NCBI RefSeq assembly: GCF_016859285.1 | Contig: NC_053420.1 | Location: forward strand, 10,341,501 to 10,405,500 | Direction of reading: 5' to 3' | DNA: 64,000 nucleotides | Origin: Xiphias gladius | Lineage: Eukaryota; Chordata; Actinopteri; Istiophoriformes; Xiphiidae | Part shown: piece by piece, positions 8,069 through 53,338 of the stretch | Numbering within the stretch: the stretch's first letter is position 1 | Layout of the letters: each line of letters starts with the position of its first letter | Notes under the pieces: model-generated | Told to the model about the DNA's origin: nothing | The model's database searches: none | Seen by the model: only the letters and a program-made list of their open reading frames with translations | Program-made: the position numbers and the translations under genes

Positions 8069-17311
<9,243 letters not shown>

Positions 17312-30884: not shown

Positions 30885-30979
30885 GTGATAACGCTGCGTG
30901 TGAAACAGACCACAGGTGCATGACAGGATTTTGTCACACACTTTTCCACACCAGCTGAAGGTTGAGTTGAGGTATAAAA
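30885..30979 (+). promoter_or_regulatory. Elastase A proximal promoter: GTGATAA block, E-box, TATA box
   Basis: GTGATAA at 30885-30891, E-box CAGGTG at 30913-30918, TTTTCCA at 30942-30948, a second E-box CAGCTG at 30952-30957 and TATAAAA at 30973-30979. The ATG follows 52 nt after the TATA box. The GTGATAA to TATA distance is 88 nt and recurs in the two sister genes (90 and 93 nt). An E-box near a TTTTCC motif is what acinar-cell genes use to bind the PTF1 complex; PTF1 binding here is inference. Confidence 0.6.
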
Positions 30980-31030: not shown

Positions 31031-33629
31031 ATGCTCATGTTTCTGGTGTTGACAAGTCTCACAGCCATGGGTAAGAAAATGACAGCACACACTGCACTAC
31101 ATAAAATTTCATTGTTGATCTCTTTCTGCCCGATTTGCTCTATTACTCTCAATCAGTCACTCTCTCTGTCATCCAGTCAGTCGCCCGTTTTTAGTTTAGT
31201 AATCTCAGGAGTTCCAGATAATCTGATCTTCCAGCACGCTCCAGCTGCCCTAATTTCTCCTTTCTTCTTTCTGTAGCTGGAAAGTAAATAATATTATGAG
31301 GTTTCCGGGAAAACGGTGTATAAATCAAATCCCGTTTTAAAAAAAAAAATTTTTCAACCAGTGCTGGCTGACCTGGAGCCCCAGCCCAGGTATCTGGAAA
31401 ACAGCTTTGAAAGGGTTGTAGGAGGGGAGGTAGCCAGACCCAACTCCTGGCCCTGGCAGGTAACCTGTTGTAACAAAGAGTCAACGATTACATTCATGTT
31501 TAAACACATACACTGTTTCAGCAGAAAAATATGAATGACGTTCAGGGACTTACTCTTGAATGAAGCCGGTCATATTTTCATACATACTCAGATCTGCTTT
31601 TCTCCCCCCTTAGATCTCTCTTCAGTACAAATCTGGCAGCAACTACAACCACACCTGTGGAGGAACCCTGATTGAGAGAGGCTGGGTCATGACCGCTGCT
31701 CACTGTGTGGCCAGGTAACACGATGATCAGCTAGAGCACAGACTTGCTGTTCTCCAGCTGTGTGAGTGTTCGGTGTATGTGTACACATTTTGTATTGCCT
31801 TGAATACAAAGAATAGTAATTCACTAAAAACGCATTGCTTATTCTTGTCTAGAGACCCAGCTATGATTTATTTCAGTGTTTTTAAATGTCACCAGCATCA
31901 GGACACTTCTGGCAGCCTCATTTATAACTGTCATATACCAAAGGGGATTCACTTAATAGATTAAAAAGTCTCCAAACCATGGAATCACAACAAAAACAAA
32001 ACCAGAAACCAGTTAATGGTGTTTTGTTGTTTTAATTTTTTTTTTTTTGCTTCAGTTTACTGTAATAAGAATTCATAACGTTCTAGCTCACTTGCAATTA
32101 GTCATTTGAGTCACAACTGTATCTAATCCTTGCCTGTTAACAATATTGTGTTTCTCTTTGCTTCTTTTAAAAAAAAAAATATACAGCAGAAGGACGTGGC
32201 GTGTCGTTCTTGGTGAACATGACCTGTACAGCTACAGTGGCAGAGAGCAGATCATGGACGTCAGCCATGTTTACATCCATCCTAAATGGGACTCCAGGAG
32301 AGTGTCTAATGGGTGAGGATTGCATTTTTTTTTTTTTTTTTCAGATTTAATGACGGTACAACCAACATGCTTTTGTTTATTTGAAAAGAGAGGTATATGT
32401 TACTTTAAAAGCAGTTTTGTCTTTAGTGAAACAATGTTTTGAGAGGAATCAATTTCTCTCATTTCTCAAGCATGTTTGTGCAAACCCGTATATTTGAAAC
32501 TGGTATGGGCTAATAATGTCACCTTAGAGACGTGGTTGTCTAACCATGAGACAAAAAGTGGTGTAGTATCTTCACAAAGCTACTTTTGGTTCCTCCTGCT
32601 TGATCCATGGATCTCCACCTCAGGTACGACATTGCCCTGCTGCGTCTGTCCTCTGAAGCCACCCTGAACTCCTACGTCCAGCTGGGCTCTCTGCCTCCCT
32701 CCGGCCAGATTCTGCCCCACAACAACCTCTGCTACATCACCGGATGGGGACACACCTCTAGTGAGTTGGCTGCACGAACCCTCTGGACACCTGTCAGTTT
32801 CAGTGCTGTGGTTGGGTCCCTTCTATGGAGCTCATAATATCATATATTTCCAATTTCATCATGTCTAGCTGGCGGCAGCCTGTCTGCAAAGCTCAAGCAG
32901 GCACAGCTTCCTGTGGTCGACCACAAGACCTGCTCCAGCTCTGGCTGGTGGGGCAGCACTGTCAAGACCACCATGGTGTGTGCCGGTGGTGGTGCTAAGT
33001 CTGGATGCAATGTGAGTCTCCTCCTATGTGAAAAAGAAAACTGGAAAACTAAAACCATATTACTATAAATTCATTTAGACATATTTTACTTGTACTTAAA
33101 TAAGCTTTATTGTTTGTACACCAATGAAGTAGTGGAGTGAAGTGATGTTGGTGGAAAAAAGAGAAGAAAGTAATCCAAATCAATTTAACCCTTATTAAAA
33201 GAAGTCTACTATGTGTTATCTTTGTTTTGGACACACCACTAAATCATTATGTCCATAATTCCGAAGATGCAAATGCTCTCTTTAATCTAATTCCTCTCAG
33301 GGTGACTCTGGTGGCCCTCTGAACTGCCTGGTTGACGGGAAATACTACGTCCATGGTATTGCCAGCTTTGTGTCCAGTTTGGGATGTAATGCTCCCAAGA
33401 AACCCACTGTCTTCACCCGCGTGTCTGCCTACATTGAATGGATAGACTCGGTTAGTACGAGTGATATGTACATTTTTGATAAGTGATATAATAACCTATG
33501 AAAAGACTCCTTATTAGTCTAGGAATGCTAGTTGGGTATGGGTTTTATGGAATTGATTCAATCTTGTGATATCATTTAGGTTGCGTAAGATGTCTGATCA
33601 GTACTCCTCTTTTCCAGATCATGATGTAA
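31031..33629 (+). CDS. cela1: Pancreatic elastase A (chymotrypsin-like elastase 1 family), complete
   Basis: Secreted pancreatic serine endopeptidase, made as a zymogen in acinar cells, that cuts after small aliphatic residues. Exons join(31031..31070,31362..31459,31614..31714,32187..32312,32624..32760,32869..33011,33301..33450,33618..33629) give 268 residues. A signal peptide of about 16 residues precedes a short propeptide with the trypsin-type activation site Arg31|VVGG. The triad is His76 (TAAHC), Asp124 (YDIALL) and Ser218 (GDSGGP). The S1 pocket is elastase-like: Ser at 189, Val at 216 (SFVSS) and Thr at 226 (KPTVFTRV) in chymotrypsin numbering. Exon sizes match genes B and C except exon 2, which is two codons shorter than theirs. 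All junctions are GT-AG; exon 4 has a tandem NAGNAG acceptor. The product ends D-S-I-M-M. Only about 100 nt separate its poly(A) signal from the promoter block of gene B. Confidence 0.95.
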
Positions 33630-33829: not shown

Positions 33830-33926
33830 GTGATAAAGTCTGAGACGGACAACAGGTGCAATTCTGACCACTGCAATGCTCAGCAGAGAGTCCACCATCA
33901 AATGAAGGTCAGCTCAGGGTATAAAA
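33830..33926 (+). promoter_or_regulatory. Elastase B proximal promoter: GTGATAA block, E-box, TATA box
   Basis: GTGATAA at 33830-33836, E-box CAGGTG at 33853-33858 and TATAAAA at 33920-33926, with the same order and nearly the same spacing as in gene A. The ATG follows 41 nt after the TATA box. The intact promoter suggests the gene is still transcribed despite its altered active site. Confidence 0.6.
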
Positions 33927-33966
33927 GATTGAGACGTGGATTTAGGAACGCAGAGGTGTTGCAGAC

Positions 33967-36089
33967 ATGCGCGTGTTTCTGCTGTTCACTGCTCTCACAG
34001 CCACAGGTAAGAAATTCCAAGGCAGCACAGCAAATAACGTTCTGATGAAAAATCTTTTTTGCTTATGATAAAATATGGGTATAATTAACACAAGAGGAAA
34101 CTATGTTCAGTGGTGTTTTGATGAGTTTCTCCATGTGCCTCAGCGCTGGCTGACTTGGAGCTTCAGTCTAGCTACACAGACAGCAGCACTGCAGGAAGAG
34201 TGGTGGGAGGGGAAGAAGTGCCTTATCACAGCTCCTGGCCCTGGCAGGTGCGGCATCACATAGCCGGGCAGAACTTGTGAACTTGTGTGTGTTTAGGTGA
34301 AAGATCCTGTTCTTCCCTACAGTAAAGGTAGCAGACGAAACCAAAATACTCTGCATGTCTCAGGTCTGTTTTTAAGATGGTTACAGGTCAACTCCATTCC
34401 ATTATCTGTCTCATTTTTATCTAAGGAACAGTTTAACATATTAGGTGATATGCTTTTTCACTTCTTTGACACGAGTGAGAAGTGAGAAGATTGATAACAC
34501 TCTCGTGTTTGTTCATTAAGTATGAAGCTAGAGACAGCAACCGGTTAGCTTAGCTTAGCACAAAGACTAGAAACAGGGGTGAAACCGCTAACCCTTGCGC
34601 TGTCCAAAGTTAAGAAAATGCACCACGTTATCAAACAAGGCGATATGTAATGACATATACTGAGGTGCTGCTGCGTGGACTTTTTTATTTTCAGGTGCTG
34701 GCTGGTTCCAGTCTCTATGCTAAGCTACGCTAAGTAACTGGCTCCCGGCTGTAGCCTCACACTATCAGTCTTCTCATCTAACTGCTGGCAAGAAAGTGGA
34801 TAAGGGTATCTCACAAAAAGAAAAAAAACTTTTTTAAAACGGTAATGATGTATTTCCAAGGTATTTCTGAAGTACTATTTAGCAAAAAATGTGTTATGCT
34901 TCCTTAAACATATCTGATACATAAATTATTTTAATTTACAAATCTACACTTACTTTCTTTAATCTAACTCATGTGATGTGTTCATAAAGATACTGTAAGA
35001 CTGAAAAGTCTTACCGATCTGAGAACTTTACTTCGATCTCTTTTGAGGCTGGAAGAAAGTTTTTCTTGATAGGAATATTTTATGAATCCTGCTCCAGGTT
35101 TCTCTTCAGTACTACTCAGATGGATCCTATCACCATTTCTGTGGAGGAACGCTGATCAGGAGAGGATGGGTCATGACCGCTGCTCATTGTGTTTACAGGT
35201 AATGGATACATTATTGTCAACCTAAAATGATTCTAATTTGATATACTGCACAGTAACTATATGAGATTCTGGTCGTCTTACACATTACCCACACAAATAC
35301 TGTACATGTCTTCTGTTTTCTTTCTTGTCTTTGTGCCGTACCTCTCATATAATGTTTTTCTGTGGAAACAAATAAACTAATCAAAGCTAAAACAGTTCCA
35401 GGTCTCTGCGTGTTGTGCTCGGTGCACTTTTCCTATACCAGAATCATGGGACAGAGCAATACAGGAGTGTCATCAACATTTATATCCATCCTGAATGGAA
35501 CAATCACAGCATCTCCTCTGGGTGGGCCAATCTTTTTTCATATCCTAGTATCAGTCTAATTCTCATAGACCACATAAACATTTCTTATTTTGTTTAACAT
35601 CTTAGTTTCAAAGAAGTTTAATCTTACTTTTACAGAGTTTTATACTGGAGTACGATTTTGATTGACTTGACAAGGCTAACAACCTTTGAATGAAATTATA
35701 ACTGTATGATGTTTTCTGTTTAATTCTGTTTAATTCTTCTGTCATATATTATTTAAAAGTCACGCAAATAATTTTGGTCAGGATGTTTCTGGTGATGCTT
35801 GTTCCAGTAAGACAATTTTGTGCTGTGATAGTATGATATACCTGCAGTAGAAGAATTTCCATCATTTATTAAATGTTTTTTTTTTTTTTTTACCTTTAGT
35901 AATGACATCGCCCTATTGCAGCTGTCTTCTGAGGTCTCCTTGACCTCTTACGTAAACCTGGCCTCTCTGCCTCCTTTTGGTGAGATCCTGCCCCACTACA
36001 ACCTCTGCTACATCACTGGATATGGACGTATCTCCAGTGAGTCACACACAACCCCTCACATTCATAATTCTGACTCTAAACCATGAAGT

Positions 36090-36155
<66 letters not shown>

Positions 36156-37171
36156 CAGTCATGCCAGTCTCACTGTACATGTTTGTCTCTCGTCTGGGTA
36201 CCGTCAGCTGGCGGAAGCATGTCTGCCAGGATGAGACAGGCCTACCTCCCTATTGTTGACCACCAGACCTGCACCAGCTCTGGCTGGTGGGGCAGCACCA
36301 TCAAGACCACCATGATCTGTGCTGGCGGAGGAGCTCGGTCAGGATGCAATGTGAGTCTGCTGGTATGAACGATATGAAAAAATGTTCGGTACACAGTTAA
36401 AACATAGATCTCCCAAACTCATTCAGTCACTAAACCAAGTAGGGCTCCATGGGCGAAGGCCAAGGAGGACACCACTACTGAAAGAAAGGCACAAAAAGGC
36501 AAATCTCTTGACTGAGATCAGGGCTCAGTGGGGGCCTGAGCATCTGTTTCAGGACTCCTGGTTCTTCTTGTCACTAAAGATAGTTCTTCATGACTGTGGA
36601 TGTATGTTTGGGGTTGTTGTCTTATACTGCAGAATAAATTTGAATGGATAAGAATCAAAAAATCTAAAGTACCTAAAAGTTTTGCACAGTAATGTAAGTC
36701 AAATATCTCCCTAAATCTATGACAGAAGGTAATAAAAAAAATCTATATTTGTGGTCACGTATCTGTGTAGAATGATCAAAAAGTTTTTTGTTTCATCCCA
36801 GGGTGACTTTGGTGGCCCACTTAGCTGCCAAGTTAACAACAGTTGGTATGTCCATGGTATAGCCAGCTTTGTGTCTGGTATGGGATGCAACGCTCCCCAG
36901 AAGCCCACTGTCTTCACCCGCGTTTCTGCCTACATAACATGGATGAACTCGGTCAGTAATGGAGAAGTACTGTATAACAAAAGGAGAAAAAGTAAAAAAA
37001 ATAAGCAGACAGTATAAGGACTCCCTTTTTACATTATTTACATAATGTAGTTTTCACAGCATGCTCCTCTAAATTACTGTAGTTCACCAGGTCAAATCAT
37101 TTGAAATTAAGGTGAACTATTCACTAAATTAATAGTGAACTTTCTTTTCCCAGGTCATGAACAATGGTTGA
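33967..37171 (+). CDS. Elastase B: intact elastase-1 homologue lacking the catalytic serine (predicted pseudoprotease)
   Basis: Exons join(33967..34006,34144..34247,35098..35198,35396..35521,35900..36036,36208..36350,36802..36951,37154..37171) give an uninterrupted 272-residue cela1-family protein with signal peptide, activation site Arg32|VVGG, His78 (TAAHC) and Asp126 (NDIALL). The active-site motif is GDFGGP: codon 36808-36810 is TTT, so Ser195 (chymotrypsin numbering; residue 220 here) is Phe and peptide hydrolysis should be impossible. Other departures are Glu70 to Ala in the calcium loop (sequence GALFLY instead of GEHDLY) and Trp141 to Tyr (TGYG). The S1 residues Ser189, Val216 and Thr226 are kept. 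Exon 4 has two possible acceptors 6 nt apart; 35396 gives the 126-nt family length, and the pyrimidine tract is poor for both. There are no stops or frameshifts, which favours a retained non-enzymatic role, although a young pseudogene or a base-call error is possible. Confidence 0.9.
34421..34820. mobile_element. Palindromic MITE-like repeat in intron 2 of elastase B
   Basis: The left half contains GGTTAGCTTAGCTTAGCA, and the right half has the inverse arrangement, ATGCTAAGCTACGCTAAG. The outer parts also mirror each other (AGTGAGAAGATTGATA versus TATCAGTCTTCTCATCTAAC, and GATATGCTTTTTCACTTCTT versus AAGAAAGTGGATAAGGGTATC). I recognise this as a common fish foldback repeat, seen again at 38458-38870. 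No coding capacity. Confidence 0.75.
36091..36153. repeat. (AC)n microsatellite in intron 5 of elastase B
   Basis: An uninterrupted AC run of 63 nt between exons 5 and 6, ending about 50 nt before the exon 6 acceptor. Confidence 0.97.
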
Positions 37172-37263: not shown

Positions 37264-38457
37264 AAATGTTCAAAATCAATATCCGTGTTTTAAACTATTC
37301 TGTCTCCATAACTGGTTAATGTTCTGAATTTTCCACAGTGTTAGGGTGGAAAATCTCTCTGGCAATGACATTTCACATGATGACACTGATGAATGTATGG
37401 TTATATCATACACCATCATCAAGATGGTTATCCTAAAACTTCACATTCAAAATTTTCCCATTCAGAGCAGCATGTGAATGTCAGCAAGTCACAGACTGTG
37501 ACAGAAACGGGGCAAATACACAGATGAGCAGACGGTGCACCACGGGGCTGAACCAGGGACACAAGGACACACTTTTGTTTTTATTCTATTTCTGAGTTCT
37601 GACAGCCAGCAGCCCTGATTAAATGCTGACATTCATTTTGCAATGTTTTGTCTTTTGGTTGGCCTGTCCTTTTGTATTATTTGTGTTATTTTTCAAAATA
37701 AAAGTTTTGTTCTTTTTTTTGCACCCGTCAGAAACTGGTCTGATTGGTTTTTAATAAACAGAAGGGTCAGATTATCCTTTCTGCAGCCTCCCTGGTTGTT
37801 TTTGTGACATTTTAGAAGGAAAAGGCTGCAGTGAGAACTGAGGCACTACTACCGGGAATAGTGGATGCATGATAAGTTTCTGCCTATAGTGGGAACCACA
37901 CATGTGCAACAGTTGTGCTATATTTCAAATGACCAACTGTTGTGACTGGAGAAATTCATTATCTTTTGTATGTCTTAAATGATTTTTTTTTTTTTTTACA
38001 GTGTCTTCATTATGTTTTAGTCCAGCACTCCCTTTTCTTCCTCAGACTTCCATTTTTTAAATGTAAAATCTGGTTAGTGTTAGAGAAACATCACCAGCTT
38101 ATTTTACTAAATGTTTTATTTCCACCTTGAAACATTGGAGTATCCTCCACAAATAAGCATAAGCAGGGCCTGTGGGGAGGTTGCATCATTTATGTGAATG
38201 TACTGGGTATTAGTTACATGCTCCCAGCTATACTTTTATTATTATAGGATTGCTGTAATGGATGTTTCTAGCAAGACACATCTCACACAACGATGTGCTC
38301 CATGTACTAAATGGACACCCTTCAGTTTATCACATCATTACATTTGCAGTTCCATTTAATCAGAGAAACCGTGCAATTGGTATTTAAGTTCAAAGATAAA
38401 CAATATATAATACAAATCCTTTTAAAAAAAGGTCGCTTGCCTCACTTACTTTTTTAT

Positions 38458-41853: not shown

Positions 41854-41945
41854 ATGCTCAGGTTTCTTGTGTTGACGTCTCTCGCAGCCCTCGGTAAAAA
41901 CCATCCGATTCTGCCTCCCTTTTGCTGTTCTGCACACACACACAC

Positions 41946-41977
<32 letters not shown>

Positions 41978-43616
41978 GACTCCAAACACACTTGAATACA
42001 TGATGTCTGACTGTTGTGCTTCTGCTTTGCTCAGTGCTGGCTGAGCTGGAGCCCCAGCCCAGGTACCTGGAGGACGGCAGTGCTGAGGAGAGAGTTGTGG
42101 GAGGTGAAGTGGCCAAACCCAACTCCTGGCCCTGGCAGGTACAGTGCGCTTTGTTTGACTCCACAACAGTGGAGGAAGAAGAACTCAGATCCTTTACATT
42201 AGTGAAAGTAGCCATGCCACAATGTGAAAATACTTGCGTCGGTCTGAGGTGTCAGGAAAAATCTTAGATCTCTCTCCGCTACAAACTCCCCCAGGACCGT
42301 CCGTTCGTTCCCCTTAATCTAGTTGTGGGACAAGCTACATCTCCATCGTTCATACTAGTGCACTGTGACCTCATGTGAATCCCAGCATCAATAGGTCAAA
42401 TCAGCCACACAACTGAAAACACTTGTGTGGGTAAGCAGGGCCTGTAATCCATAATCGTGCATCATCTCATACGTTGGTCATATGTTTTGTACGTATGTCA
42501 AAGTAACTAGTGAGTTAAATCCATGTAGTGAAGTAAAAAGTATAATGTTTTTAAGGGTCTACATGTCTTTAATCATAGTCCAGTGTCAGGAATGCTGCCA
42601 AGACACATTTAACAAAAATGTGAATGGTTTAGTTTGTTTTAGTTATAATGCTCTGTTGTCGTCTCATTAGATCTCTCTTCAGTTTAAATCCACCTACTGG
42701 AACACAGAGTCAACAGTGACATTTGTGCTTAAACACATACATTGTTTCAGCAGGAAAATATGAATGATGTTCCGGGACTGTGCCACTATCGTAGCAGATT
42801 AATAGCCGGTCATATTTTCATGCATATTCAGATCTGCTTTTCTCCCCCCTTAGATCTCTCTTCAGTACAAATCTGGCAGCAACTACTACCACACCTGTGG
42901 AGGAACACTGATCGGGAGAGGCTGGGTCATGACCGCTGCTCACTGCGTGGACCGGTGGGAGTTTCGCACATCACAGAATAGCTGCTGAGCCTAGATCTAA
43001 AAGAGATATGGGTGATTAGCAGGATATGTGTTCTGACAGAGCTGAACATTTACATAAATATATTTCATTATATTTCCTGGTGGCTTGAGTACATAGCCAG
43101 GCCATCTTAGACATAAAGCGTTTCAGCTCTCCATTTGAATCAGCTATTCAAATGAAATTGACAAGTCCCCACAAAACATATTTTCCATCTAAAATATGGA
43201 TTTTCAGCAGATGTCTTTGGGTTATTAGAGACAACTAACTGACAGACAGTGGAAGAATGAAAATGTTCTTTTTTTTTTTATGTCCACAGCTCCCGGACGT
43301 GGCGCGTTGTTCTTGGAGATCACAACATCCACTCCCACGAGGGCAGAGAGCAGTACATGAGTGTGAGCCGCGTCTACATCCACCCCCGTTGGAACTCCAA
43401 CAATGTTGCTGGAGGGTTAGTGGTTACTTGACATAGTTTGACCCACTTCTTCATACAAAAAATAGAAAATACTGATATATATATACACCACATATAAAAA
43501 CTATGCATGTAGTTATTTGTCAACATGTAAAAGTTATGAAAAATGTCAGAAGGCTTTTTTGGAATATAATGTTTAATATAATAGCCACATTATGTGGATA
43601 TTTCATTTTGAATGTT

Positions 43617-43657
<41 letters not shown>

Positions 43658-46054
43658 TTATTTTTTTTTACAAATACTCATTTATTTCTACTTTTTGCTG
43701 TCTGAAAAAACCTTCCTAGACTTATTATTCTGAACATACATTGTGAAAACTCAACCAGTCATACAGTATGTCCCAACTGGAGCTGAAACAATTAGACAAC
43801 TGACAAAAAATGTATCAGCAACTATGCTGATAATCAATTTATTGCTTAAATTAAATTTTTAAATGTTTTTTAAGATAAATTGACAAACACTATGTGGTTC
43901 CAGCTTGAAGATTTGAACATTGTAAATTAAATATTTTTGAGTTTTGGACAAAGGGAGAATTAGACAATTCAAGTGAATTACAGACCCATCTTGGGCTTTA
44001 GAAAACTGTGATTAACCAGGCAATTAGTAGATTAATCAAGAGAATAATCTGCAGATTCATTAATAATGAAATAATAGTTAGCCCTAAAAAACTCTACTTG
44101 AGAGACACACAATAGCCTTCTCTTAAACAAAGGCCATTACAATGAGCTTTTATGAAGACAGGGAAAAGATTTATAGCTCACTGACTTGAGGGCATTCTGA
44201 CCCTTAGGTGGGACATTGCTCTCCTGCGTCTGTCCTCTGATGCTTCTCTGAATAACTACGTCCAGCTCGGCGCCCTGCCTCCCTCTGGTCAGGTCCTGCC
44301 CCACAACAACCGCTGCTACATCACCGGATGGGGACGCACCCGGAGTAAGTCTGGCTTAATGATACAGTACATGATAAATTAATCGGTTCAGTGTTTACAC
44401 GCAGAGAGAAAGCTGTATGCAGTCGTCTATGATCCAGTTGTAAGACACAGCCCTTCTGTTGTCCCCAGCCGGAGGTCAGCTGTCTGCAAAGCTCAAGCAG
44501 GCGTACTTGCCTGTGGTTGACCACAAGACCTGCTCTAGCTACGGATGGTGGGGCAGCACTGTGAAGGATTCCATGGTCTGTGCTGGTGGCGGCAGCGACT
44601 CCGGTTGCCAGGTGAGCCAATGAGGTCTTAGAAAGGACTTTGTAATCCATTCCCACATTTGACACTTATTTGTACGACTCGAGAGCAAGAAGTTGGGGGC
44701 AGTATCCCTGGGGCGTGACAGCTATTTCAGGGTAACGCTTTCTAATAAGCCACCCTTTTATGAAGGGTTTAAAAGTTGTAACTACTGGCTTTATTAAGGG
44801 TTAACAAATTAATTACTTAGAATTTATGGATCAATTTTACGCCATTAATAAGAAAAACATTTGGACCATATGACCACTGACCTTGAGAAAATGAGCTGCT
44901 GAAGATCTGGACCAAGCGCATTTATTAACAGTGTATTAAGCAAGTATTCATCGGATTACTAACATTCATAACCATATTATTACCAAATAGAAAGGATAAA
45001 CACTGGCCAAAGCAATTTTTCACAGCCTATCAAACCAATGTGTCGTCTTATTAATGCTTATTACTGATCTATAAAGAATGAGAAACCGATATATGAAACA
45101 TTTACAAAGCCCTTAGTCACAACTAATAAACTCTTTTTAGAAAGTTTTCTATTTCAGCTGGACAAATTCCTCCCAGCTCAGATTTTGAAAGAATGCCGGA
45201 GTGATGTTTGGATTTAAGCAGAGAGGGAGAAACACTGGAAAGAACTTGTCAGAATTCAGTCCCACTCCACCATGACAAAGTGAAATTGAATGTCTCCCAC
45301 CGAGCTGAGGCCTGACCCCTTCCTGTCAAGGAAGATATTTTGGAGGACACATGCGGGATTACTTGCAGCATCAGCAGGGGCATAAGTCAGTAACAAAGAT
45401 CCAGGCTAGTGCTTAAGCTGCACGGAGTGTCAAAGTCTTGCAAACTCATGCTCTGCACGAACGTGCTCAAGGCTGTCTGAGATTAAAGTGGGAACATGTT
45501 GCTGTTTGAAAAACTGGGTATTTTGTCCAACTCTGCTCAAAAGGGCAGAAATAAAGCCATCAGTTATGAATTCTTGGCTCTGAGGTCCCTCTGGGATGTG
45601 TTTTCTCGGAATCCAGGGTGACTCCGGTGGCCCCCTGAACTGCAGTGTCAACGGCAAATGGGTCGTCCACGGAGTGACCAGCTTCGTGTCCTCCTCTGGC
45701 TGCAACGCCTACAGGAAGCCCACCGTCTTCACCCGTGTCTCTGCCTATATCAGCTGGATGAACGGCGTCAGTATTTAACACTCACCCATATCAATCAAAC
45801 AGTACCAAATATTTAAAAAACATTCAAACATGACACAGTTCAATCAGTGTTGGTTATGCATTTGTTGTTAAAGTGTTTGTTTTTTTTTTAATTTTATAAA
45901 TCAAGCTATATGCAGTAACTGCAGGATTTCATAATACGATTTGTACATTCACTCATCCTTACAAATACATGTATTTGTGCAGTATTTTGTTCAGATTCTT
46001 GAGGACAATCACATAATGATCCATTTGTCCTTATGTTGCCAGATCATGGGTTGA
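41854..46054 (+). CDS. cela1: Pancreatic elastase C (chymotrypsin-like elastase 1 family), complete
   Basis: Secreted zymogen of a pancreatic elastase. Exons join(41854..41893,42035..42138,42854..42954,43290..43415,44208..44344,44469..44611,45617..45766,46043..46054) give 270 residues. Features are a signal peptide ([10 protein letters not shown] start), activation site Arg33|VVGG, triad His78 (TAAHC), Asp126 (WDIALL) and Ser220 (GDSGGP), and elastase S1 residues Ser189, Val216 and Thr226. The calcium loop GDHN keeps an acidic residue at position 70. All junctions are GT-AG. Intron 2 carries two broken copies of the start of exon 3, and its distal part matches intron 2 of gene A. If intron 7 were kept, the frame would stop after four codons and give a nearly normal C-terminus. 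This copy should be fully active. Confidence 0.95.
41933..41977. repeat. (CA)n microsatellite in intron 1 of elastase C
   Basis: CA run of about 45 nt with one G interruption, between exons 1 and 2. Confidence 0.95.
42268..42706 (+). pseudogene. Two exon 3 remnants inside intron 2 of elastase C
   Basis: TTAG|ATCTCTCTCCGCTACAAA at 42268-42285 and TTAG|ATCTCTCTTCAGTTTAAA at 42671-42688 repeat the acceptor and first codons (I-S-L-Q-Y/F-K) of exon 3. The second runs on for about 36 nt and then joins sequence like that found in intron 2 of gene A. Neither continues to the TAAHC part or a donor, so they are dead exon starts that could still compete as cryptic acceptors. Confidence 0.7.
43624..43649. 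repeat. (AT)n microsatellite in intron 4 of elastase C
   Basis: A pure AT run of about 26 nt followed by a long T tract. Confidence 0.9.
43779..44092. mobile_element. MITE-like repeat, GATTAATC family, in intron 4 of elastase C
   Basis: Begins GAGCTGAAACAATTAGACAA, ends with GATTAATCAAGAGAATAATC and TAGTTAGCCCTAAAA, and contains GGTTCCAGCTT and TTTTGGACAAAG. I recognise this as a widespread fish repeat. Two related copies occur in gls2 introns at about 59320-59615 and 61715-61928. Confidence 0.65.
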
Positions 46055-50547: not shown

Positions 50548-53338
50548 GTTTGGGTCTCCACGGGTTGGTCCAGAGGCCACCCTGAGATCCTACATCCAGC
50601 TGAGCCTCCTGCCAACGTTTTGGGCAGCTCCTGTCCCCCAGCGACCTCTGCTAAGTCACTGTACAAACCTCCACGTACAGTAGCTGATTAAGTCATCGCT
50701 AGTTTCAGTGTGGGAAAGTAACACCAACTAGCGGACAAATGCTTGACTGTGTGTTGAAAAATTTGCTGGTTGATTACCTGCCACTTTGGAAGATAATTTG
50801 TAAGTAATTGAAAATCTTCAATTCTGTCTTTTAAATTATAAACATGAAAATGCCAAAAAAACAAAACAAAAACACGCTCATAATAACAATGCCAACATGC
50901 TGATGTTTATCAGGTATTTAGCATGTTCATCACCTCAGTTTATCGTGTAATCATGCTAACATTTGCTATTTAGCACTAAACACAAAGTACAGCTGAGGCT
51001 GATGGGACTATCATTAGTTTTGCAGGTATTTGATCATTAACTGCAACTGATAAATAAAAAACCTTATTCTTTTTAAACCCGATGATAGCACCAGACTATA
51101 AGTCAGGATATCATTAAAGTAATTACAGTTACTCCTGGGAAGGGACATGAGGGTGTGCACAAAATTTCATGACTATCCCTCCAATAGTCGTCTAGAGATT
51201 TCAGTCAAAGCCACAAAGGCCAACCTCATGGTCGCGCCAGAGGAAAAGTCAGGGGATCGGCAAAGTCTTTTGGATTCATCCTCTGGGGACCATGACTGTT
51301 TGTTCAAAATTTCATGGTAACCCACATGGTAGTGAAAATATTTCAGTCTGGAGCCAAACTATGGAGTGGACAGACTGACATTATATCATCTTCTAAGCCT
51401 TGTTGGCAGCAGGGCTAAAAATATCGATTACCAATCTTCAAAAACTAACTTGCTTGCTAGCAGTTAACGATGACTAAATGACAGTAACTTACAGACTAAA
51501 ATACGATTAAAGCAATAAAAAAAATCACATAATTCATACCTGCCCACTCAGAATTAGGCCTGTTTTTGGCTGGACTGCAAGGACAGAGCCAGCCGTATAA
51601 AAGCCAATGACCGTGACTGACTGACTGAGTGAGTGAGTATGTGACTAAGTGTTGGAGTTTCCCTGTTGGCAGTCGATCCTTCAAAATGATTTGGGGCAAA
51701 CAGTTTGTGTTGCGTCATCAGGGGGTGTTTAGAGGCAGTCTTGCCAATTTAGCGCCTTTGTTGCTAGATTTACTGACCACCCCTTTAGCGAGTTTTCTTC
51801 ACAAAAGCCCCTAGCGACAAATCTGGCAAACTTTTTAGACAAACCTTAGCTACTTTCCGTAGAAGAGAGTCGCAAGTATTTCCCCGCAAGCACGAGGTCA
51901 GGCTTTCCCTCTGCAGGCACACCTATGTGTCTCATTCAATTGACCGCTCGGAAGCTGACATAGACAGGAATGAGCTTCTAACTCTCTCTCTGAGAGATCA
52001 TTTTACAAGTAAAATAGCTGAAATCACAGCACAGACGTTGTCTTTAACTTGTATATAACCATGTATATAACCTTGTATATAACCATGTATATAACCTTGT
52101 ATATAACCATGTATATGGTTGATTTTGTCAGACGACGTTGTGGATATAAAACCAGGGTTTTAGCAGTGCAGAGCAGCAGCTTGGAAATGGCTTGGAGGTG
52201 ACTGGTTAACATGTAGTCTTAATGGGCCATGTTTCAGTAACTATTTCATACTTGTTCCGTTGTCTGACAAGAGAAAAACATGTAATTGAGAACAGCTTTA
52301 TTGGGAATTCACCTGTATTAAATGACTAAATATGTGAGCACAGAAGCAAACAGATAAAGGGCAGTCCAGCCATAGATTAGGTTTCGACTGAGTCTTGTTT
52401 TACTCCTCAGCCCGAAAAGCTTGAAAATTTGGTTATAAGCTTGCAGGGTTCCCTTTCATTCCTATTCCCTTTTTTTTTTTTGGTCCTAGCTTCATTAAAC
52501 ATCCTAAATAACTAACACCTCTCTGTCTGCCATGGTGATGAAGAGGCCTAGTTTGTTTTGTGCAGCTGGAGTACTTGATCCAAAACCATCATTATCGTGG
52601 CGAGCAACAAAATGTCAGCTCCCGTTCAGAGAGCACGATCTGATACCACACCCAGTGTCCTCCTTAAGGCAGAGAGCCGCATGAAAACCCAGCCTCCACA
52701 AGATAGTGATTGAGAGTGAATGGTTGTTTTTATTGCGTGCTTTAGAGAAAACAGAGACCACCACTCAACATAGTAAACTACTACATAATCAATGAAGCAA
52801 TGGGTAGTAGATTTTTCCTTTTATCATTCAAAGTAGCAGGTGTCATAATTTGTTTCTCATCTACACATAATCCAGTCGACTGCATGCGTTTCCCATGCAG
52901 GAGTCATATCCATACGGCAGATTAAAACTGTATTTGAATGAGAAAGATAATGTGAGGAAATAGCTCAATAGCTCAGTTTAATGTCTGCTCTCATATTAGC
53001 TGGTGGAGGCTTGTCTGCCCGGCTGAAGAACGGCTTCCTGCCTGTTGCTGCGGTGGAGGAATAAATCAGGACAACCACGGACTGTTCAGGTGGCAGCAGT
53101 CTCTCTCTGGCTGTCAGGTCAGTCTAATATAAGGTCTTTTCTGCTCCACAATGTTCCTTTCCTTCAGGGATCCAGGCATGTTCAGTGCAATGGACGCTGT
53201 GGGTTCACCAGTGGAGATCACAGACATTTATTTGTTAGGGGCACAGTGCCATCCGGTGGTTGCAAGAAAAACTGAAGTACATGTGTTTGGCGGCTGCGAC
53301 CACAGCCTATGCCTAAATCAGCTACATCAGCGAGGCCA
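50548..53338 (+). pseudogene. Decayed fourth elastase copy (exons 5, 6 and 7 only)
   Basis: The exon 5 relic is at 50548 to about 50696: acceptor ACCTTAG, then GAGGCCACCCTGAGATCCTA, matching the [10 protein letters not shown] stretch, with frameshifts. The exon 6 relic at 53000-53117 keeps acceptor TATTAG and donor GTCAGT, and reads GGGLSARLKNGFLP before an in-frame TAA at 53062-53064 and a deletion of about 25 nt. The exon 7 relic, 53168 to about 53338, keeps acceptor CTTCAG and fragments of the C-S-V-N-G and A-Y-I-S stretches, but the GDSGGP codons are destroyed. Exons 1-4 and 8 were not found. It cannot encode an elastase. Confidence 0.8.
52051..52118. repeat. 12-bp tandem repeat GTATATAACC(A/T)T, 5.5 units
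   Basis: Units end alternately in AT and TT, so the array also reads as a 24-bp repeat. It lies within the span of the elastase relic, between exons 5 and 6. Confidence 0.95.

Follow-up and report, generated by a model that had tools for sequence, protein, structure and literature searches.

A tandem elastase-1 gene of Xiphias gladius with phenylalanine in place of the catalytic serine: retained pseudoprotease or recently dead copy?

Can a digestive elastase gene that has lost its catalytic serine still be kept for its product? The window analyzed here, a stretch of 64,000 nucleotides of Xiphias gladius DNA, holds three S1A elastase-1 (CELA1-type) genes, A, B and C, in tandem on the plus strand, and B encodes phenylalanine at the nucleophile position. 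We give a probability of about 0.48 to the reading that B is a retained secreted elastase-1 (CELA1-type) S1A pseudoprotease. The lean towards retention is slight, and is made because B left the standard elastase at Trp141 and many other residues while under constraint. The assembly searched comprises 690.8 Mb in 1298 contigs.

Gene B and its active-site codon

A, B and C each have 8 exons, GT-AG introns and identical phases (compared among these three genes). The cluster and the parts of B are:

31031..33629, plus strand: gene A, an intact elastase-1 paralogue with GDSGGP and 8 exons
33853..33858, plus strand: E-box CAGGTG (CACCTG on the opposite strand) upstream of B, aligned with the same E-box of A at 30913-30918
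33920..33927, plus strand: TATA box TATAAAAG of B, invariant in A, B and C
33967-37171, plus strand: gene B, 8 exons with a 272-residue open frame and GDFGGP
33967..34006, plus strand: B exon 1, with the start codon and a signal peptide recognized by eye
34144..34247, plus strand: B exon 2, with the activation site R/VVGG, cleavage falling between the codons at 34199 and 34200
35098..35198, plus strand: B exon 3, with the His57 codon CAT at 35185-35187
35396..35521, plus strand: B exon 4, with the calcium loop: Ala 70 (GCA, 35424-35426), Phe 72 and His 77, Glu80 being kept
35900..36036, plus strand: B exon 5, with the Asp102 codon GAC at 35904-35906 and Trp141 changed to Tyr (TAT, 36021-36023)
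36208..36350, plus strand: B exon 6, with Ser189 and Gly190 of the S1 pocket
36802..36951, plus strand: B exon 7, with GDFGGP; Ser195 changed to Phe (TTT, 36808-36810)
37154..37171, plus strand: B exon 8, with the stop codon
37258..37263, plus strand: poly(A) signal AATAAA of B
41854..46054, plus strand: gene C, an intact elastase-1 paralogue with GDSGGP and 8 exons
50573..50661, plus strand: exon 5-like relic of a fourth copy, D (72-74% identity)
53002..53106, plus strand: exon 6-like relic of D with an in-frame stop, a weak match (E 0.02-0.23)

Exon 7 of B opens at 36802-36813 with GGTGACTTTGGT, in frame as G-D-F-G-G-P. The exon start reads GGT GAC TTT GGT GGC CCA, so that GDFGGP stands in place of GDSGGP. 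At the same site gene A has GACTCTGG (Ser codon TCT) and gene C has GACTCCGG (Ser codon TCC). The first-pass annotation had reported this motif in B, and its reading of the codon as TTT, against TCT in A and TCC in C, is confirmed. The change from TCT to TTT is a single transition outside a CpG. A tblastn search over the window found one exon 7 for B and no alternative with Ser.

A sequencing, assembly or polishing error at one base of a normal active elastase would leave the same trace, and the difference does consist of one base in one assembly. We regard this as the least probable of the explanations considered here. The rest of B is unusual too, which would make an error at just this codon a coincidence. 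Nor does the assembly offer another copy carrying Ser: a DNA search for the exon 6-8 region of B found this region once, with gene A (81%) as the nearest exon match, and so revealed no second allele.

If the base call is right, the product of B is very probably not a protease, because Phe has no nucleophile. His and Asp of the catalytic triad are present with Phe at position 195, and the activation features of an active S1A peptidase, R/VVGG and Asp194, are in place. An S1A domain, a lost triad residue and an open frame class B by sequence as an S1A pseudoprotease. It had been argued earlier that no S1A protease can hydrolyse peptides without Ser195. This holds for Phe, which lacks a hydroxyl, and is slightly too absolute as a general rule: the available part of one beetle study describes a Ser195Thr homologue that retains low activity, Thr keeping the hydroxyl (PMC11172050).

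Apart from Ser195, B retains His57, Asp102, Gly193, Asp194, Ser214, the S1 pocket (Ser189, Gly190, Val216 and Thr226) and 8 Cys. It does not have the form of a processed or decayed pseudogene, since all 8 exons, the splice sites, the TATA box and the poly(A) signal are there. The first-pass annotation listed the triad His and Asp, the activation site, signal peptide, TATA box, poly(A) signal and eight exons as present, and each was found again, the signal peptide by eye only. Its description of the gene as otherwise intact is borne out for the gene structure but not for the protein, which carries W141Y, a one-residue insertion near the mature N-terminus and an altered calcium loop. An apparent two-residue deletion in exon 4 was ruled out, as an acceptor 6 bases upstream, at 35396, restores the alignment with A and C. 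The 270-residue version of B with the later exon 4 acceptor was the query for the solved-structure match, the window tblastn and one genome listing; the 272-residue version was used for Pfam, NG86, the codon model, the tree, the residue comparison, the mosaic and the decay simulation.

A block with CAGGTG and the TATA box aligns upstream of A and B. On the opposite strand, CACCTG and, seven bases further on, TTTCAC in A or TCTCAG in B form an arrangement that we take, by eye, to be reminiscent of the PTF1 element of pancreatic genes. The E-box upstream of B is a possible PTF1-type pancreatic element. Downstream of B, the stretch at 37440-37560 resembles, by eye, the upstream region of elastase genes and is possibly the leftover promoter of a lost elastase copy. 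Intron 6 of B holds a dispersed repeat at 36513-36697, with at least 40 or so genome places listed at 75-88% identity. In the same intron, the 75 bases at 36428-36502 match a site on C7 with 99% identity. Gene C carries in its intron 2, at 42667-42690, 24 bases that partially copy the beginning of exon 3 (92%), some 180 bases before exon 3 itself starts.

Exon and protein searches found no further exons of relic D. The minus strand carries, at 16745-17311, an exon of an acid-sensing ion channel 1-like gene (Pfam ASC; ASIC1 structures matched). In human, CELA1 and ASIC1 both map to 12q13, and because of this neighbour the locus is probably the CELA1 locus.

How rare the loss of Ser195 is in this genome was read from 80 other S1A last exons (L027-L106), hand-picked among the matches listed, with 150 of 353 and 142 of 235 candidates scored in the source listings and identical exon copies (L038/L039, L087/L088) counted separately. 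A script returned 75 S, 2 D, 1 A, 1 Y and 1 unaligned; after hand reading of frames, Ser195 is present in 74 of the 80. The six exceptions are L032 and L045 (both D), L033 (A), which presumably is haptoglobin by its appearance, L094 (Y), L037 (T, in SDTGG) and the broken L095. The best match of L094 is HGF-like protein, a known pseudoprotease. L044 has S at 195 but has lost Asp194. Within the elastase family, Ser is found in all nine in-frame sequences read besides B, namely A, C and seven other exons (L098-L104, all GDSGGP). L095 (G000:C6:23944444-23944680) is an elastase-like last exon whose frame breaks right after GDSG, and is another decayed copy.

Divergence of the protein and selection on B

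B scores 206.5 bits against Pfam Trypsin (cut-off 20.6), compared with 236.9 for A and 234.0 for C. Among solved structures, salmon elastase 1elt comes closest to it (E 1.7e-99). B shares 64% identity in the mature domain with this protein and 57% with porcine elastase 1 (1b0e), together with the same S1 pocket and 8 Cys; with a protein of known structure at 64% identity, there is little reason to doubt the fold. In the protein tree B groups with A, C and the salmon and pig elastases 1, with support of 88/94, which is below the tool's 95/80 mark. Its overall sequence, its eight exons with shared phases and Ser189, Val216 and Thr226 of the S1 pocket place it in the CELA1 family, and its activation site is as in A and C. 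B differs from CELA1 elastases in Phe195, Tyr141, Ala70 and Phe72 of the calcium loop, and the one-residue insertion near the mature N-terminus.

For a wider comparison ten loci (L017-L026) were put to spliced alignment and six were used, L022 (poor model) and L024-L026 (other S1A types) being omitted. When A, B, C and salmon elastase are set side by side, residues unique to one sequence number 36 in B, 5 in A, 11 in C and 11 in salmon elastase. The change of Trp141 to Tyr required two base changes (TGG to TAT). In a set of 11 elastase proteins, 5 columns are invariant except in B, W141Y and S195F among them. We do not count this excess as a signal, as it is not clearly above other long branches: E5 has 9 such departures, E14 has 5 and pig 3, followed by E18a and E18c with 2, salmon and E19 with 1, and A, C and E18b with 0. 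Tajima counts for B:A and B:C are 41:11 and 48:17 with salmon as outgroup and 30:15 and 35:14 with pig. With E19 as outgroup they are 24:11 and 23:14 (chi-square 2.2 for the latter), and the faster rate of B is less clear.

Two other features of the protein were tried and set aside. In the calcium loop, at positions with ligand roles, B has Ala 70 and Phe 72, against an acidic residue at 70 and N or D at 72 in A, C, salmon and pig. This is weak as proof of altered function: Lys occupies 70 in E19 and E18a-c, and position 77 is variable. Active-site erosion as a sign of an old loss finds no support either: the active-site set, 51 of 236 columns, holds 5 of the 36 unique changes, which is no enrichment (Fisher p 0.69 against the other sequences pooled). 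GC content at fourfold sites is 0.457 in B, 0.62 in A, 0.639 in C, 0.463 in E14 and 0.50 in E5, and the low value of B could hint, mildly at most, at weaker expression.

Pairwise NG86 estimates of dN/dS are 0.242/0.671 for A-B, 0.286/1.025 for B-C and 0.183/0.610 for A-C. We fitted a codon branch model written for this analysis to 267 codons; as the protein tree gave no firm order of A, B and C, a star tree and each of three rooted orders were used. On the star tree the B branch has a dN/dS of 0.302, and a value of 1 is rejected (LRT 25.7, p 4e-7); the corresponding LRT values on the three rooted orders are 9.7, 24.7 and 24.2. B does not differ significantly from A and C (0.302 versus 0.245, LRT 0.52). 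By part, the B branch has a dN/dS of 0.306 in exons 2-5 (LRT 20.3), with 0.22 in exon 5 (LRT 10.5), and 0.14 in exon 6 (LRT 7.5). The prepro part (0.63, 30 codons, p 0.45) is not different from 1, and exon 7 (0.53, 50 codons, LRT 0.20, p 0.66) is indistinguishable from 1. The dN/dS comparison with A and C suggested in the first-pass annotation thus supports constraint for B overall but not for the exon that lost the serine.

Exon 7 offers too few codons and too few changes for constraint to show, and we rejected its dN/dS as proof of constraint after the loss of Ser. The constraint measured on B is not datable to after that loss, and constraint on the rest of the gene may predate it entirely. 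The constraint on B as a whole fits a retained product; the age limit from exon 7 and its uninformative dN/dS leave room for a late, functionless loss.

Age of the serine loss

The similarity of A to its neighbours is a mosaic. In the comparison of 31031-33450 with 33967-36951 and 41854-45766, exons 6-7 of A resemble B, and exons 1-5 and intron 2 of A resemble C. Third positions alike in A-B and A-C number 22:40 in exons 1-5 and 26:10 in exons 6-7 (Fisher p 7e-4), and A and C are 85% identical over 265 bases across intron 2 and exon 3. The simplest cause would be exchange among the tandem copies, either A-B in exons 6-7 or A-C in exons 1-5. An A-B exchange is not the sole reading, as an A-C exchange in exons 1-5 gives the same contrast. 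Exon 7 fits an A-B exchange; exon 6 alone fits it poorly (6 residues unique to B, 0 to A).

Under either exchange reading, Phe195 must have arisen after the last ancestor that exon 7 of A shares with exon 7 of B, since Ser195 stands in A, in C and in every other in-frame elastase exon read. The NG86 dS of exon 7 is 0.438 between A and B and 1.174 against C. On the B branch, dS is about 0.19 in exon 7 (50 codons), about 0.75 in exons 2-5 and 0.60 overall. The loss of Ser probably came after much of the divergence of B.

This timing bears directly on the chance that B died young. A redundant copy shielded by A and C would have lost Ser195 recently, in the species or only in the sequenced individual, without function and without having yet gained stops or frameshifts; we give this explanation a substantial chance, though short of even. 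A single transition suffices for it, and the nearness of exon 7 to A rather than C sets the loss after the A-B ancestor. Exon 7 has 4 residues unique to B against 3 unique to A, compared with 31 against 2 in exons 2-6, and its dN/dS does not differ from 1. Two other elastase copies in the genome, relic D and L095, are visibly broken. They show that elastase copies decay in this genome, in keeping with a young loss, and we also count them for the retention of B, which is not broken.

Simulated neutral decay limits how old a functionless loss could be. In 1500 runs with 0.1 indels per substitution, B stayed intact in 28%, 8.6%, 2.7% and 0.2% of runs at 0.01, 0.02, 0.03 and 0.05 substitutions per site. 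At 0.02 substitutions per site the intact fraction was 15% with 0.05 indels per substitution and 4.4% with 0.15. Because an intact B is this rare, either the loss is young (perhaps a polymorphism) or B is kept by something. A young loss would have to be no older than about 0.03 substitutions per site, which is little beside the dS of the B branch in exon 7 and overall. W141Y, with its two substitutions, and the 36 unique residues are older departures from the standard elastase and also speak against it.

Possible roles and precedents

As a retained pseudoprotease, B would be made in the exocrine pancreas, secreted as a zymogen and cleaved by trypsin to give a protein of mature S1A shape. The N-terminal switch to Asp194 is intact, so trypsin-cleaved B should adopt that shape. 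Phe195 at the nucleophile site would permit no acylation and no serpin trapping, and would probably crowd His57 and the oxyanion hole. Instead of cutting, B would then work through surface binding, partnering other zymogens or serving as a ligand. A binding role appears the likeliest, should B have a role at all. A fuller version of the retained reading makes B a lineage-specific vertebrate pancreatic pseudo-elastase that selection kept after the loss of Ser195. Secreted with the digestive zymogens, it would serve as a gut signal or bind partners without catalysis, its former active site having been remodelled by Phe195 and Tyr141 into a surface for binding. Taken with all these parts this reading is unlikely.

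The first-pass annotation had suggested a decoy, inhibitor trap or regulator. As a trap or decoy, B would bind gut elastase inhibitors and spare A and C, which we consider highly improbable. The retained S1 pocket (Ser189, Gly190, Val216, Thr226) and oxyanion Gly193 would suit such a role, and the available text of the beetle study suggests interaction with inhibitors in the midgut lumen for the insect homologues (PMC11172050). Phe195, however, should crowd the S1/oxyanion region, where canonical inhibitors dock. Serpins require an acyl-enzyme with Ser195, and capture by serpins and alpha-2-macroglobulin needs cleavage. The S' side, to which residue 41 contributes, is also altered (T41F). The inhibitor trap seems the weakest of the roles proposed, and binding or scaffold roles have better precedents.

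One precedent comes from the pancreas itself. Bovine proproteinase E (1pyt_C, 1fon), like B an elastase-family pancreatic protein, is matched by B at E 1.3e-82 and 2.8e-80; unlike B, it presumably has an intact catalytic triad. Going by a title in the reference list of PMC8398347, it is part of a ternary zymogen complex in bovine procarboxypeptidase A complexes. Caldecrin (chymotrypsin C) is also a pancreatic elastase-family protein, and its Ser216Ala form still lowers serum calcium according to the available part of the same source (PMC8398347). Caldecrin is naturally an active enzyme, unlike B, which is naturally without Ser. Elastase IIIB counts against such a precedent for B, as its effect on bone required its activity in that account (PMC8398347).

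Outside the pancreas, dead S1A proteins serve as ligands (HGF, MSP), a cofactor (protein Z) and a scaffold (haptoglobin), as far as the accessible text of PMC13194640 goes. HGF and MSP resemble B in their S1A fold and in an aromatic residue at 195, and their pseudo-active-site region is a ligand binding surface (PMC13194640, same text). B differs from them in being nearest to digestive elastase, in lacking any additional domain and in retaining His57 and Asp102. Gut serine peptidase homologues of Tenebrio are likewise secreted S1A proteins with triad losses, 1-4 of them with Phe at 195, and 9 of 95 are highly expressed at feeding stages (PMC11172050, available part). They differ from B in their insect lineage and in that most also lack His57, which 42 of 125 keep (PMC11172050). 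Azurocidin became an inactive homologue in some mammals, in the portion of PMC7914634 available.

Among the matches listed from the open-licence literature (titles and abstract openings), none described a vertebrate pancreatic elastase gene naturally without the serine, which is not proof of absence in print; the motif GDFGGP had no match in that literature. Blood, immunity and insect guts all provide familiar examples of S1A pseudoproteases. Should Phe195 prove fixed and common to related species, B would be a clean case of a digestive enzyme turned non-enzyme, with two apparently active tandem sisters as controls. If it is not fixed or shared, B catches the first step of a duplicate's death.

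The same genome offers a pair of similar plasma-type S1A exons about 14 kb apart, L045 and L061 (G000:C12:18684497-18698336), one with GDSGGP and one with GDDGGP. By its motif, L045 may be another S1A pseudoprotease.
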